From positions 1 to 27,220 of the IMG/VR virus record IMGVR_UViG_3300042914_002157: DNA of 27,220 nt; one strand, written 5' to 3'. Source of the stretch: a virus. Shown piece after piece: positions 20,812-25,552 of this stretch (its first letter is position 1; every line of letters starts with the position of its first letter). A program made the translations under genes and the position numbers. The notes below the pieces were generated by a model. It saw only the letters and a list, made by a program, of their open reading frames with translations, searched no databases and was not told where the DNA came from.

Positions 20812-21312
20812 ATGGATACCATCGGAACAGGCAAGGCCAAAGAAAGCCTATTGACAAAAATTGATAAGTTGGAAAAGAAATCTGAATCCAGACGGAAGCA
20901 GGTCGAGTATTGGAAAGACAAATCAAATTCATGGGAAGAGAAATTCTTCTTCGTTCAAGATCAAATGGTCGCTGAAAATCAGGAAATAACCAAAAAACTT
21001 GAAGCCATTGAGACCAAATACAAATGGGCCAATGAAGCCCATAAGATTATGAAGCAATCCAACGAGGAACTTCTGGAGCGATGCCGATTTGCCGAGGGTG
21101 GTGAACTTGTTTCAAAAATGGAAGTGAAGAACCAGAATGTTGAAATCATGTTGATGAAAGGTGATTTGGAATTTTACCAAAACGAATTTGAAACTTTAAA
21201 GAAAGATCACGAAGAACTCCATAACGATCAGAAGTACACGAAGGTACTTACCTGGGTGGGTTGGATCATGTTCTTCACGACTCTTTTCGGAATGATATTT
21301 TTAAGACCGTAA
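20812..21312 (+). CDS. Tail-anchored coiled-coil membrane protein
   Basis: A 166-residue protein. Residues about 10-135 are a highly charged coiled coil (L-L-T-K-I-D-K-L-E-K-K-S-E-S, then repeated E/K/Q heptads). The C-terminus is one hydrophobic helix, V-L-T-W-V-G-W-I-M-F-F-T-T-L-F-G-M-I-F-L, ending after R-P, which makes it tail-anchored. This architecture is used by phage proteins that tie replication to the membrane (phi29 p1 is one coiled-coil example) and by some lysis proteins; its place in the replication block favours the former, but this is inference. The ATG at 20812 follows a promoter; an upstream in-frame ATG at 20725 lies inside the previous gene and is not preferred. Confidence 0.62.
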   Translation: MDTIGTGKAKESLLTKIDKLEKKSESRRKQVEYWKDKSNSWEEKFFFVQDQMVAENQEITKKLEAIETKYKWANEAHKIMKQSNEELLERCRFAEGGELVSKMEVKNQNVEIMLMKGDLEFYQNEFETLKKDHEELHNDQKYTKVLTWVGWIMFFTTLFGMIFLRP

Positions 21313-21314
21313 CC

Positions 21315-21596
21315 ATGACACAAGAAGAAATCAAATCCACGTTGCAACCTTTACTGAAGGCCATTCAAAAGGCTGAACAGGAATATGCAGAAGCCAAAGC
21401 GTTGATCAAAACGGCCATTGCAAAGCCGTATATGAATAAGCCTTGCAGGATTACCAAAGGTAACTTCGAAGACAAAGAAGGCCGGATTGTGAACGTGGTA
21501 ATTGATCCGAATTATGATGTCTGGTTTCTGGTACAAATTGGAGAAGATGCCCACTATTATCCAATAGAATATCTGGAAGTGTTTTTGGAGAAATGA
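21315..21596 (+). CDS. Small protein with KOW/SH3-like C-terminus
   Basis: A 93-residue protein. An N-terminal helix of about 40 residues (EEIKSTLQPLLKAIQKAEQEYAEAKALIK) is followed by a small beta barrel: K-P-C-R-I-T-K-G-N-F-E-D-K-E-G-R-I-V-N-V-V-I-D, where the G-x-x-x-x-x-x-G spacing is that of KOW motifs that bind RNA or ribosomal protein partners. The ATG at 21315 lies just after the previous gene stop; an ATG at 21261 would overlap that gene by 52 bases. The function is unknown, but nucleic-acid binding is plausible. The promoter of the next gene lies inside its 3' end. Confidence 0.55.
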   Translation: MTQEEIKSTLQPLLKAIQKAEQEYAEAKALIKTAIAKPYMNKPCRITKGNFEDKEGRIVNVVIDPNYDVWFLVQIGEDAHYYPIEYLEVFLEK

Positions 21597-21612
21597 ATAT
21601 TTAGTATATTTG
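21582..21612 (+). promoter_or_regulatory. Promoter of the structured leader and DUF1376 gene
   Basis: TTTTTG (21582-21587), a 17-base spacer and TATATTTG (21605-21612) match the Bacteroidota consensus perfectly. Initiation about 5-7 bases downstream would start the transcript at the first hairpin of the leader RNA. Confidence 0.7.
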
Positions 21613-21615
21613 CAA

Positions 21616-21719
21616 TGCCGAAAGGCAATCGGGGTAGGAGCCGATTCGAAAATATTGGTTTAAAACCAACAAAGCCTGTCCGATGGAGACTCCTACCTCC
21701 TGAAGACGGGCTTCTTTGT
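21616..21719 (+). ncRNA. Structured 5' leader RNA with loop-loop pseudoknot
   Basis: Four hairpins can be drawn. H1 is TGCC-GAAA-GGCA (21616-21627, a GNRA tetraloop). H2 is AATCGG/CCGATT (21627-21632 with 21641-21646) with loop GGTAGGAG (21633-21640). H3 is TTGGTT/AACCAA (21655-21669). H4 is a 9-bp stem (21672-21680 with 21705-21713, one G-T pair) with a 24-base loop. The H2 loop is perfectly complementary over 8 bases to CTCCTACC (21690-21697) in the H4 loop. CCGAT also recurs at 21680-21684 and could instead pair with ATCGG of H2, giving a mutually exclusive fold. It lies between a clear promoter and the initiator ATG at 21723, so it is probably a regulatory leader. I cannot match it to a known riboswitch or ribozyme family. 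Confidence 0.6.
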
Positions 21720-21722
21720 TTT

Positions 21723-22391
21723 ATGGCAAAAGATCCGGCTTTCTTATTTTATAGTTCTGATTTTCTGACTGGTACAATGTTCATGACAAATGAACAAGTA
21801 GGTCTTTACATTAGACTTCTTTGCGCTCAACATCAACATGGTGGAAGGATTGATACGAACGTATTACGAACGCAATGCGATTCAATTACTAATGGTTCTG
21901 TAGTTTATTCAAAGTTTGAACATGATGATACTGGAAGCTACTCTGTCAGGTTAGATGAAGAGATGAAAAAACGTAAAGAAAAAGGTATAAAGGCCAGAGA
22001 ATCAGTAAATAAAAGATGGAATAAAGATTTATACGATGGTAATACGAACGTATTACGTTCTGAAGATGAAAATGAAAATGTAAATGAAGATAAAACAGTA
22101 ATTGAAATTAAGAAAGAGAGTCCGAAAGAAAATCAATTTACAAAACCAACTATAAATGAAATATCAATTTACCTCTCTGAAAAATACCCAACTGCAAACA
22201 AAAATGCAATCAACACCTTTGCCGAAAAGTTCTGGAATCACTATGAAAACAATGGTTGGAAAGTAGGTAAAAACAAAATGAAAAAATGGAAACTTGCATT
22301 TACCTCTTGGTCTGAAACAATTCAAAAGGATTTATTCAATCGAACAACACAACCAATCGGAACACCAACTTTTTCCTCTAAAAATTATTAA
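21723..22391 (+). CDS. DUF1376 (YdaU-like) replication initiator/organizer
   Basis: A 222-residue protein. The N-terminal segment D-P-A-F-L-F-Y-S-S-D-F-L-T-G-T-M-F-M-T and the following G-L-Y-I-R-L-L-C-A-Q-H are the DUF1376 signature, a winged-helix domain in phage replication proteins. The middle is charged and variable (about 70-130). The C-terminal part (about 135-205) contains N-T-F-A-E-K-F-W-N-H-Y-E-N-N-G-W and W-K-L-A-F-T-S-W, typical of helicase-loader or organizer C-termini. Phages usually place it before the helicase gene, as here. The ATG at 21723 is chosen because the frame upstream, to 21615, is a structured leader starting at the transcription start. The peptide T-N-V-L-R occurs twice, coinciding with DNA repeats. 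The gene is notably AT-rich from 22060 onward. Confidence 0.82.
   Translation: MAKDPAFLFYSSDFLTGTMFMTNEQVGLYIRLLCAQHQHGGRIDTNVLRTQCDSITNGSVVYSKFEHDDTGSYSVRLDEEMKKRKEKGIKARESVNKRWNKDLYDGNTNVLRSEDENENVNEDKTVIEIKKESPKENQFTKPTINEISIYLSEKYPTANKNAINTFAEKFWNHYENNGWKVGKNKMKKWKLAFTSWSETIQKDLFNRTTQPIGTPTFSSKNY
21853..21868. repeat. First copy of 16-bp repeat in the initiator gene
   Basis: ATACGAACGTATTACG, an exact copy of the sequence at 22042-22057. It contains the 12-bp inverted repeat ATACG-AA-CGTAT. Possible binding site for the initiator protein. Confidence 0.6.
22039..22056. repeat. Perfect 18-bp palindrome in the initiator gene, candidate origin element
   Basis: GTAATACG-AA-CGTATTAC is a perfect inverted repeat with a two-base centre. 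It includes most of the 16-bp repeat shared with 21853. An extra ATACGA lies at 22031-22036. A strongly AT-rich stretch follows (about 22060-22210), as expected for a DNA unwinding element. In lambda, origin repeats lie inside the initiator gene in the same way. Confidence 0.5.
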
Positions 22392-22394
22392 CAA

Positions 22395-23732
22395 ATGAAA
22401 CAACCAGAACTTGAACAAGTCATCCTCGGATCAGTCATAATTGACCGGGATGCACAGATTGAATTTTTTGCCCTTGTGAACTCTGCTGATGTATTCACAG
22501 AGGACAAGCACAAAACGATTTATCAGGCTCTAAAAGCCTTGTATGATGATAACCTACCCATCGACATTTTGACGATCGCAGAATGGGCTAAAAAGGCCGG
22601 AACATACAAGGCCATCGGTGGTGGTAAGACATTGGCTCAATTGTCTGGCAAGGTTTCATCAGCTGCCCATTTCAGCATTCACATCCGCTACCTGTTGGAA
22701 GCCTACGTCAAACGAGGAATCGGATCGTTCGCACAACAACTACTGACCTCATCAGTCAATGATGTGGATGATGTTTTTGAACGGGTTGCAAAGGTTCAAA
22801 CCGGATTGGAAAACCTGATTAACCAGGTTGTCATAAAAGACGAAAAAAGCATCTCCGAAACCCTTCGTGAGATTCGTGAAAAATGGGAGATTGAAAACAT
22901 CTCAGGACTTGCAGGTATGTCAACCGGATTGAATACCCTTGACAAGGCCACAGGCGGACTTGTGGACACGGACTTGATCGTAATGGGTGCAAGGCCCGGA
23001 CAAGGGAAGACGGCCTTCCTGATGAGCCTAATTCAGTCCTACTGCAAGCGAGGCATTCCGGTTGGAATGTTTAGTTTAGAAATGGGTCAGGTTCAACTGG
23101 TTCAAAGGTTGCTCTCGATGGAGTCAGATGTCTTTGCCTATAAAATCCGAAACGATAAATACGATAATTACGACCGCCAACGACTTTATGATGCCGCATC
23201 GAGAATCGACAAATGGCCCTTGTACATCAATGACGAAGCCGGAATGACATTGAGACGATTACGGACGAGGGCGCACATCTGGAAGAAGCAACACGGCATC
23301 AAACTGCTCTGTGTGGATTACCTGCAACTTATGTCATCCGACAACAAGAAAGGCAATCGGGAATCTGAGATCAGCGAGATTTCAAGAGGACTTAAGATTT
23401 TAGCGAAGGATCTGCAAATTCCAATCATTGCCCTGTCGCAGTTATCGAGAGCCGTTGAAGCCCGGCAGGATAAGATGCCGCAATTGTCCGACCTGCGTGA
23501 GTCTGGAGCAATTGAACAGGATGCAGATTCAATCTGGTTTTTGATGAGACCTGGTTACTATCCGCAGTTCAGAGAATCCAGAACGACAATGGTTGAAGGT
23601 GATGAATACGAGACCGAAAACCTCTGCATACTTTCAATCGCTAAATTCAGAGCCGGAGAAACGAAACTATTGGCGTTAAAATGGGATTCTAACATCATGA
23701 AATTCTCAGACTATGCATCAACCACTTTCTAA
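22395..23732 (+). CDS. dnaB: Replicative DNA helicase, DnaB family
   Basis: A 445-residue hexameric ATP-driven 5'-3' helicase. The N-terminal domain (about 1-110) begins E-L-E-Q-V-I-L-G-S-V-I-I-D. A linker precedes the RecA-like motor. Walker A is G-A-R-P-G-Q-G-K-T at 198-206 (Lys205), and S-L-E-M-G follows. Walker B is L-C-V-D-Y-L-Q-L-M near residue 310. The C-terminal motifs I-P-I-I-A-L-S-Q-L-S-R and L-S-D-L-R-E-S-G-A-I-E-Q-D-A-D are the hallmark DnaB stretch. Its length is about normal. It follows the initiator by three bases. It unwinds phage DNA at the fork, probably loaded by the DUF1376 protein. Confidence 0.97.
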   Translation: MKQPELEQVILGSVIIDRDAQIEFFALVNSADVFTEDKHKTIYQALKALYDDNLPIDILTIAEWAKKAGTYKAIGGGKTLAQLSGKVSSAAHFSIHIRYLLEAYVKRGIGSFAQQLLTSSVNDVDDVFERVAKVQTGLENLINQVVIKDEKSISETLREIREKWEIENISGLAGMSTGLNTLDKATGGLVDTDLIVMGARPGQGKTAFLMSLIQSYCKRGIPVGMFSLEMGQVQLVQRLLSMESDVFAYKIRNDKYDNYDRQRLYDAASRIDKWPLYINDEAGMTLRRLRTRAHIWKKQHGIKLLCVDYLQLMSSDNKKGNRESEISEISRGLKILAKDLQIPIIALSQLSRAVEARQDKMPQLSDLRESGAIEQDADSIWFLMRPGYYPQFRESRTTMVEGDEYETENLCILSIAKFRAGETKLLALKWDSNIMKFSDYASTTF

Positions 23733-24104: not shown

Positions 24105-24287
24105 ATGGTTGATTATTCTGCCAACCAGAAAATAAGCTTTATGATTGCAGATGACCAGTTCGACCGATATTTGAGGGCATTGGGCCATTTGAACCGTTCA
24201 CAGTTAATGCGTGATCTATTGATGAAGGCAGTACGAGAAAAAGAGTTGGAAAAAGTTTTTCAAGAAAATTCTAACTTTGATAGATGA
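24105..24287 (+). CDS. Small CopG/ribbon-helix-helix-like protein
   Basis: A 60-residue protein. K-I-S-F-M-I-A-D-D-Q-F-D-R-Y-L-R-A-L-G has the shape of the beta strand and first helix of a ribbon-helix-helix fold, followed by the turn N-R-S-Q-L-M-R-D-L-L-M-K-A-V, whose N-R-S-Q start resembles the second helix of CopG-type repressors. A start at 24075 in the same frame is possible but overlaps the previous gene; 24105 follows an A-rich stretch. Its stop overlaps the metzincin start (ATGA), so it may regulate its own transcript or act elsewhere on the phage DNA. Moderate confidence. Confidence 0.55.
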   Translation: MVDYSANQKISFMIADDQFDRYLRALGHLNRSQLMRDLLMKAVREKELEKVFQENSNFDR

Positions 24288-25552
24288 AAAACACATTGCT
24301 ATTTATCATTCTTGCGCTTGTCTATCTTACAGGATGCACAAAGCAAACGCCTGAAAAGGCATCAGCCACCACCGATTCAACATTCATTGCGCCCGATCTT
24401 GGCGATGATGAAGTTGAAGTGAAAGAGGATCATCCACGCTACCTTTCCAGAGGTCAGGCTGAACCCAACTTCTGGGACCCCACTTATAAGTCAAGAAAAG
24501 TAATGAACGTCTACATTGAACTAGACTACTCTTTGACAGCCGCATGGGGTGCGAATGCCGATGCCAATCTGCAAAGGCTGTGCAATTCATCATCTCAGAT
24601 ATTGGAGCGTATAGCAGGGCCGAAAATCAATCTGGTGAAGGTTAAGAAATGGACAACGCCTGATCCGTATGCCATCTATCCCGATGCAATGAGTGTGTTG
24701 TATAATTGGGCCAACGCCAATCCGTTGAAGCAGGACACATTCAATGTGTTTATCTCTGGCAAAAACTTTGGCGGTATTGCCTACATCAGCCGTGAGAATG
24801 TGACAACCGTCAAATACTCTGTGTGTGGGTTTGGTCAATCCATTCCGGGAGATGCCTTCAATTACACCTATTCGGTGTATTGTTTCACTCATGAATTGCT
24901 TCATAATTTAGGCATCTCACATACGCAAAACTGTTGTGCATGGAAATCCCAAACAGGTGTGTCATTGGGCCGTCTGGATAGTTGCTATTCGGCCGAGATC
25001 ACCTGCTCACCAACGCCTGTAAATTGCGGAAGCACGACAAAAAGAATGTCGGGTGGATTGAATAGTTATTGCCATTTGTACAGTACAATGCAGTATACCC
25101 TGCATCCTGCCGTTGTACCAGTATTACACAAATCATTGTTTTATTCAAACCTACCGGATTATTCAACCAATCCACCTCCTCCACCACCACCAACCGGAAC
25201 CAACACTTTTAGAATTGCCGGAACGCCATATCAGCCCGGATACACAAGAGCAGACACGGCAAAAGCTGTTGATGGCAACGAGGCCACCAGATGGCTCACG
25301 GCAGGGGCTACAACGCTTACATGGAATTATGCTCAGGCAGTAACACGGACGCAGGTTTATTTGAGTTCAGGATTCAATGGTGGCAGCCCGAACCAGACAT
25401 TGACATTAACGGTTGATGGCGTGAATGTGCCTTTGGGATTTGACAAGAAAATTAAGTTTACCAAGGCCATCAACGTAACCGGGAAGCGGTTTGTGCTTAC
25501 CACAACAGGAACAAGTAATATCAGCAGAATATTTGAAGTGAGTTTGAAATGA
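24284..25552 (+). CDS. Lipoprotein metzincin-type zinc protease with discoidin-like C-terminus
   Basis: A 422-residue protein. The signal peptide has a lipobox ending at Cys18 (L-T-G-C), so it is probably exported and lipid-anchored. The protease motif H-E-L-L-H-N-L-G-I-S-H at 203-213 is the metzincin HExxHxxGxxH zinc site with Glu204 as base. A possible Met-turn is Met269 in S-T-M-Q-Y. Many Cys residues between about 215 and 270 suggest disulfides. A seven-proline linker at 297-303 leads to a C-terminal domain (about 310-422) with A-V-D-G-N-E-A-T-R-W, the pattern of F5/8 type C (discoidin-like) carbohydrate-binding domains. It follows the small RHH-like gene with an ATGA overlap. It is not a standard replication gene and may be an accessory factor that modifies the host cell surface or surroundings. 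Confidence 0.83.
   Translation: MKNTLLFIILALVYLTGCTKQTPEKASATTDSTFIAPDLGDDEVEVKEDHPRYLSRGQAEPNFWDPTYKSRKVMNVYIELDYSLTAAWGANADANLQRLCNSSSQILERIAGPKINLVKVKKWTTPDPYAIYPDAMSVLYNWANANPLKQDTFNVFISGKNFGGIAYISRENVTTVKYSVCGFGQSIPGDAFNYTYSVYCFTHELLHNLGISHTQNCCAWKSQTGVSLGRLDSCYSAEITCSPTPVNCGSTTKRMSGGLNSYCHLYSTMQYTLHPAVVPVLHKSLFYSNLPDYSTNPPPPPPPTGTNTFRIAGTPYQPGYTRADTAKAVDGNEATRWLTAGATTLTWNYAQAVTRTQVYLSSGFNGGSPNQTLTLTVDGVNVPLGFDKKIKFTKAINVTGKRFVLTTTGTSNISRIFEVSLK

Follow-up and report, generated by a model that had tools for sequence, protein, structure and literature searches.

A kissing-loop leader RNA before replication and other early genes of Bacteroidota phages

Directly before a replication gene of the window (the whole 27,220-nucleotide stretch analysed here, IMG/VR virus record IMGVR_UViG_3300042914_002157), two hairpin loops are perfectly complementary to each other over 8 bp. 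Is this complementarity an accident of sequence or a helix within a leader RNA and, if the latter, what would the leader do? On our reading of the sequence the leader RNA extends from 21617 to about 21722 (Table 1), and the ATG of the downstream gene lies at 21723. The protein encoded there scores 17.6 bits against Pfam DUF1376, under the cut-off of 30.1, and matches phrog_9327 (primosomal) at 1.8e-8; a DnaB-like helicase gene (22395-23732) comes next. Also in this early region, ORF 24284-25552 resembles an M12-type metallopeptidase (Reprolysin_5).

Table 1. Features of the leader region in the window.
Feature	Position	Strand	Basis or remark
Candidate -33 element TTTG	21584..21587	+	sequence; consensus from PMC6847099
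-7 promoter box TATATTTG	21605..21612	+	sequence; published geometry T-12..G-5
H0, GNRA-capped hairpin TGCC-GAAA-GGCA	21616..21627	+	at predicted 5' end
H1 hairpin, 8-nt loop	21627..21646	+	stem AATCGG/CCGATT (21627-21632/21641-21646)
5' kissing sequence GGTAGGAG, the H1 loop	21633..21640	+	pairs with 21690-21697; double compensatory changes
H2, small hairpin TTGGTT/AACCAA in A/T-rich linker	21655..21669	+	close-homologue alignment
H3, terminator-like hairpin AAGCCTGTC/GACGGGCTT	21672..21713	+	arms 21672-21680/21705-21713; two double-changed pairs
Apical hairpin GGAG/CTCC, loop ACTCCTAC	21685..21700	+	fold; invariant in close-homologue alignment
3' kissing sequence CTCCTACC in H3 apical loop	21690..21697	+	complements 21633-21640
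U-rich tail TTCTTTGTTTT, putative termination site	21712..21722	+	sequence; abuts start codon
Downstream gene, DUF1376-like / primosomal (replication) protein	21723..22391	+	Pfam, PHROG matches

The promoter is of the Bacteroidota TAnnTTTG type rather than sigma-70, and for this reason a sigma-70 scan misses it; neither that scan nor one for short-loop terminators fits the elements of this leader. In F. johnsoniae the -7 box spans T-12 to G-5 (PMC6847099). Because this geometry puts the G of the box at -5, the predicted +1 is 21617, the first base of the GCC-GAAA-GGC hairpin, in agreement with the sequence-only reading that had placed a GNRA hairpin at the expected transcription start. The candidate -33 element stands 17 nt before the -7 box, within the 3' end of the upstream ORF 21261-21596, and a TAnnTTTG-type box also precedes the leaders of most relatives. 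An ATG at 21615 was rejected as a conserved coding start: it occupies -2 to +1 of the predicted transcript, is replaced by TTG in L002, and its frame closes after 4-5 codons in L001 and L321.

The leader folds more stably than shuffled sequence (z -3.2), and a sequence check bore out every position given earlier for the hairpins, the loops, a second CCGAT and the ATG. H0 is unchanged in five close homologues, and its stem has gone from GCC/GGC to GTC/GAC in L041 and L321. In the alignment of the close homologues 95% of the H2 cells are paired, and L009 and L010 have a related linker. The apical GGAG/CTCC stem encloses other loops in L288 and L309. The U tract of the window's tail is interrupted (TTCTTTGTTTT).

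The complementarity of the loops is not due to chance, and three independent lines of evidence agree on this. The first is the alignment of the five close homologues, which were found by a pattern search and have unrelated genes behind them. The full fold, kissing helix included, is paired in 98.8% of its cells, and five pairs are changed on both sides: one in the H1 stem (in L318), two in the kissing helix (A-U to C-G in L314, GGTCGGAG/CTCCGACC, and G-C to C-G in L322, GGTACGAG/CTCGTACC) and two in the terminator stem H3 (U-A to A-U and C-G to A-U). None of 500 shuffles reached the observed covariation score, and when the partner was slid by one base as a control the pairing collapsed. Homologues of the window leader thus keep both the complementarity and its covariation. 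The second line comes from 127 non-redundant regions upstream of DUF1376-type genes, in which T-tailed hairpins with a long loop were picked blind to kissing. In the 41 leaders so identified, pairing of the upstream strand with the loop of its own leader averages -13.6 kcal/mol, compared with -9.6 for the loops of other leaders, a difference that 0 of 10,000 permutations matched. The remaining 86 upstream regions lack the defined hairpin, partly because other genes come first in the operon. The third line is a search for two hairpins with complementary loops, which returned 40 unique cases with promoter and T tail, versus one in shuffled sequence. Neither promoter nor T tail played any part in selecting these hits, and a T-rich tail follows 40 of 46 kissing hits that have a promoter, compared with 77 of 301 that do not.

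Two further proposals of the sequence-only reading were rejected on comparison with the homologues. It had suggested a mutually exclusive switch in which ATCGG pairs with the second CCGAT (21680-21684), a segment that is lost in L314, L318 and L322 (three of the five). It had also pointed to ACCTCCT as a mimic of the anti-Shine-Dalgarno core; one of the five lacks this motif, as does the wider family, and mRNAs of Bacteroidota are described as being without SD sequences (PMC6847099). As for the antisense-type control that it raised, such control of the leader is possible, though no opposite-strand promoter was found: a TAnnTTTG box on the opposite strand near the 3' end occurs in 0 of 40 leaders, where 3.3 would be expected.

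The same architecture, with differing kissing sequences, recurs in dozens of phage leaders and, judged from these sequences, the kissing leader is a large family of Bacteroidota phages that is not specific to DUF1376. The leaders precede several kinds of replication protein (DUF1376/primosomal, DUF6291, O-like, DnaD-like and Lin1244-type) and also helicase, methylase and HNH genes. A structured leader at a regulatory position before a replication gene is thus upheld; its restriction to DUF1376 is not, since leaders of this kind stand before many early genes. This breadth also bears on whether the element could be part of a replication origin, or a single-stranded DNA structure, instead of an RNA control. 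The window's site, before replication genes and near the DnaB helicase, would suit such a role, but the element starts at the +1 of a promoter, stands before HNH, methylase and helicase genes as well, and can be present in several copies per genome, and we consider this explanation very improbable.

HNH/NUMOD genes with their own promoter and kissing leader were seen at L029 (minus strand, 10272), L311:1599, L317:9891, L327:5052, L331:13649 and L334:40354; inserted genes therefore seem to bring the element along. At L205:3191-3340, two overlapping promoters, each with its own 5'-end pseudoknot (GCATGAC, AGCCGGCTTC type), serve one gene. Other arrangements were seen near DUF1376 genes. In L201 (locus 3001), a tight terminator (AGCACTGTG/CACAGTGCTTTTTTT) sits about 120 nt upstream of DUF1376, nested in a longer AAATCTTCCCTAAT/ATTGGGGATTT helix, possibly another type of attenuator, and L011-L018 share an unrelated conserved leader (GGGTTGCTTAGGCATAAGCG...GCACGTT...AACGTGC) about 90 nt before DUF1376, with no kissing pattern. 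In the Bacteroides phages BU2-1 and C2_18_80S2P (L329:2501-2530 and L330:2501-2530), a promoter is followed by AATGTCGAAAGG / AATGCCAAAAGG; this start, promoter and a few bases, resembles the window leader, and the two were rejected as members because the fold is absent.

Family members fall into two types. In type A, to which the window leader belongs, the kissing strand is a hairpin loop of 7-8 nt, and GUNNNAG with CUNNNAC is a frequent combination. The type B strand is a bare 5' end, the first ~10 nt from +1, that pairs into the terminator loop; of 14 such arms, 7 have the predicted +1 as their first base and 11 begin somewhere from +1 to +3, an agreement that was not a selection criterion. 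Structures that begin exactly at the predicted +1, and in type B sequester the 5' end itself, are what would be expected if the fold shielded the RNA's 5' end against nucleases, the tail being a mere U-rich spacer. Kissing could indeed stabilise the RNA instead of terminating transcription. We nevertheless regard 5'-end protection as improbable, as it does not account for the GC-rich stem and T tail that nearly all members place directly before the ATG, or for the diversification of the kissing sequences.

Type B leaders often contain an ORF of ~30 codons that runs from the end of the arm through the hairpin to the start of the next gene. Coupling of a leader ORF to the next gene is clear in many leaders of type B and also exists in some of type A. 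In L003, L004, L007, L041, L081, L083 and L230, among others, the ORF stops at most 16 nt from the next start; the window's own subfamily has no coupled leader ORF. Directly after the 5' kissing arm, ORFs of ~30 codons were noted in L003, L004, L006, L007, L041 and L046, and likewise in L081, L083, L230 and L319; these ORFs end in ATGA/TGATG-type overlaps with the next gene. A conserved leader peptide was considered and rejected: the peptides are mostly not conserved, since the reading frame shifts inside the leader (L003/L004, L088/L094), with L081/L083 and L065/L066 as exceptions that have similar peptides.

With its own promoter, a terminator-like end, a length of ~105 nt and a place before many unrelated genes, the element might alternatively be an independent small RNA gene that acts on RNAs of other phages or the host, the downstream gene being read through by chance. 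There is little to recommend this option when one RNA contains both partners and the two covary, leader ORFs are coupled, and the next ATG is only 5-30 nt away in nearly all cases. Its absence from known RNA families, suspected from the sequence, was confirmed: neither the window leader nor 20 relatives matched Rfam 15 at gathering score, and at E up to 10 there were only chance matches, so that a known riboswitch, ribozyme or c4 family was rejected. Members share no aptamer core with a conserved ligand pocket such as a riboswitch would have, and what recurs is the architecture and the GU...AC edge of the kissing helix. A PMC literature search found no paper on DUF1376, phage and leader together. 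Many viruses of Bacteroidota have this design, in changing yet matching letters, before their early genes, and it therefore looks like a class of regulatory RNA not described before.

Comparison of related genomes points to modular exchange. Identity between the window phage and L320 is ~90% as far as 21626, breaks down in the leader and returns at 93% from 21723 onward; L314 shares the window leader, and another gene replaces DUF1376 behind it. The kissing arms also change quickly. Between L043 and L264, changes affect 4 of 12 positions in the arms, all of them compensated, and 4 of 548 elsewhere; between L043 and L044 the figures are 6 of 12 and 11 of 438. The same holds for L003/L004 and L073/L075, and fast arm change is absent in L023/L025, L088/L094, L171/L173 and the window phage with L002. 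Pooled over pairs that were not chosen on arm differences, 34 of 201 arm positions are changed versus 222 of 3894 in the surroundings (odds ratio 3.4), a rate of change about threefold higher in the kissing sequence; the pooled p-value is optimistic because one pair enters twice and the Fisher tests assume independence of the two sides in each pair.

All eight named, isolated flavobacterial phages that were examined, two of them over the first 20 kb only, carry at least one leader, with 12 leaders in total versus 0.2 expected from block-shuffled genomes. Cultured phages with a leader include the Flavobacterium mumin/hemulen/morran and elemo groups, FCV-1, Cellulophaga phi13:2 and Polaribacter Danklef_1. 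Phages of one host set have different matching alleles: on hosts LMO6/LMO9, mumin/snusmum, hemulen/filifjonk/hattifnatt and morran differ (mumin GTGGAACG/CGTTCCAC, hemulen GTGAGACG/CGTCTCAC, morran GTGAGAAG/CTTCTCAC), as do elemoA, elemoA_13-1A and elemoE on host BAL314. Single mumin or elemo pairs give a weak signal of arm change on their own. The rapid paired change of the kissing sequence, together with its differences among phages on a common host, suggests a trans-acting specificity tag.

A purely cis-acting attenuator would need complementarity alone. Kissing would then only tune folding and termination, and the changing sequence would reflect neutral compensatory drift and recombination of leaders, with no action in trans; genomes do swap whole leaders, and several close pairs show no arm change. 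We think this rather unlikely, as the arms outpace both unpaired and coding surroundings though each change needs a matching one, L043 and L264 differ almost only in the arms, and one phage can hold several leaders with different tags.

The architecture, the covariation, the +1 placed by promoter geometry, the U tail at the ATG, the modular exchange and the fast paired change are features of the sequences; the mode of action that follows is our proposal. We put at roughly 0.6 the probability of the reading in which 21617 to about 21722 is a self-contained leader RNA that restrains the replication gene downstream. The nascent RNA would fold H1 first, and the loop-loop contact of 7-8 bp would arise as the apical loop emerges. 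This contact would organise the long-loop hairpin and favour termination, block the start region, or both, so that only a fraction of the transcripts would yield the initiator. Translation of the leader ORF in type B, or another event, would open the structure. In F. johnsoniae, structure lying between about -20 and +20 affects initiation (PMC6847099). In a further and more speculative step, since terminated leaders would carry both complementary loops, they could pair in trans with same-tag leaders of other genomes, functionally like P4 CI RNA or plasmid incompatibility RNAs, the kissing sequence being a specificity tag that diversifies among co-circulating phages.

More tentatively, and with a better chance of being wrong than right, we propose that the kissing sequence serves as an RNA tag of self and non-self: when two phages infect the same cell, terminated leaders of one would pair in trans with leaders of the other that match and would silence (or unlock) the early or replication genes of that other phage, and phages that share a host would therefore diversify their tags by paired mutations. 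Lysogenic immunity is excluded as a general role because mumin-type phages are reported to be strictly lytic (PMC7077304); competition during co-infection would fit.

Whatever its action, this structured RNA class, missing from Rfam, recurs at early operons of Bacteroidota phages, cultured ones included. Should the leader attenuate replication genes, it would serve as a general point of control in a group of phages of whose regulation very little is known. Should the fast-changing matched loops work in trans, they would constitute a new form of RNA-based phage-phage exclusion and a widespread system of RNA-based competition or incompatibility, even in strictly lytic Bacteroidota phages, which is testable with existing isolates that have common hosts and different tags.

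Among known systems, the leader would work most like the replication leader of phage P4 and the rep leaders of plasmids. The likeness is incomplete because the leader has no second target site, no opposite-strand antisense promoter and no Rfam c4 match, and so lacks defining features of each. In PMC4825925, which cites the primary work, the P4 replication operon is described as controlled by leader-RNA pairing and premature termination, with complementary segments in one transcript. The processed CI RNA of P4 pairs with two sites, seqA and seqC. As in P4, complementary segments lie within the leader of a replication operon; P4 has two target sites and a processed RNA, whereas here one loop pairs with the loop of one terminator-like hairpin and the RNA is not known to be processed. 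The family leaders examined have one complementary pair each and no P4-type second site (flanking seqA/seqC), and window-type phages belong to the Bacteroidota, several related ones being strictly lytic.

In the rep leaders of IncI-alpha (ColIb-P9) and IncL/M plasmids, long-range loop pairing before the replication initiator gene forms a pseudoknot that activates translation, with a coupled leader ORF, variable loop specificity and control by an opposite-strand antisense RNA. Loop pairing before an initiator and variable loop specificity are common to both systems, and the translationally coupled leader ORF recalls type B. The primary papers on these rep leaders are cited in PMC10724649. Their antisense RNA comes from the opposite strand, whereas our leaders have a U-tailed hairpin and no opposite-strand promoter (see above). 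The c4 RNA of P1/P7 (RF01695) is encoded on the same strand, and sequences matching its loops lie close to a leader ORF to which the regulated gene is coupled. Same-strand loop matching is shared, but here there is one complementary pair, not two, and the hosts differ; the RF01695 covariance model matched neither the window leader, even at E 10, nor the 20 relatives. The kissing loops of ColE1 and R1 (RNAI/RNAII, CopA/CopT) are likewise 7-8 nt long and fully complementary, and the loop sequence sets specificity. Their partners are opposite strands of the same DNA, whereas here both reside in one RNA and matching must therefore be kept by paired mutations. What distinguishes this leader is that the two partners of a single RNA stay matched in this way while their sequence turns over.
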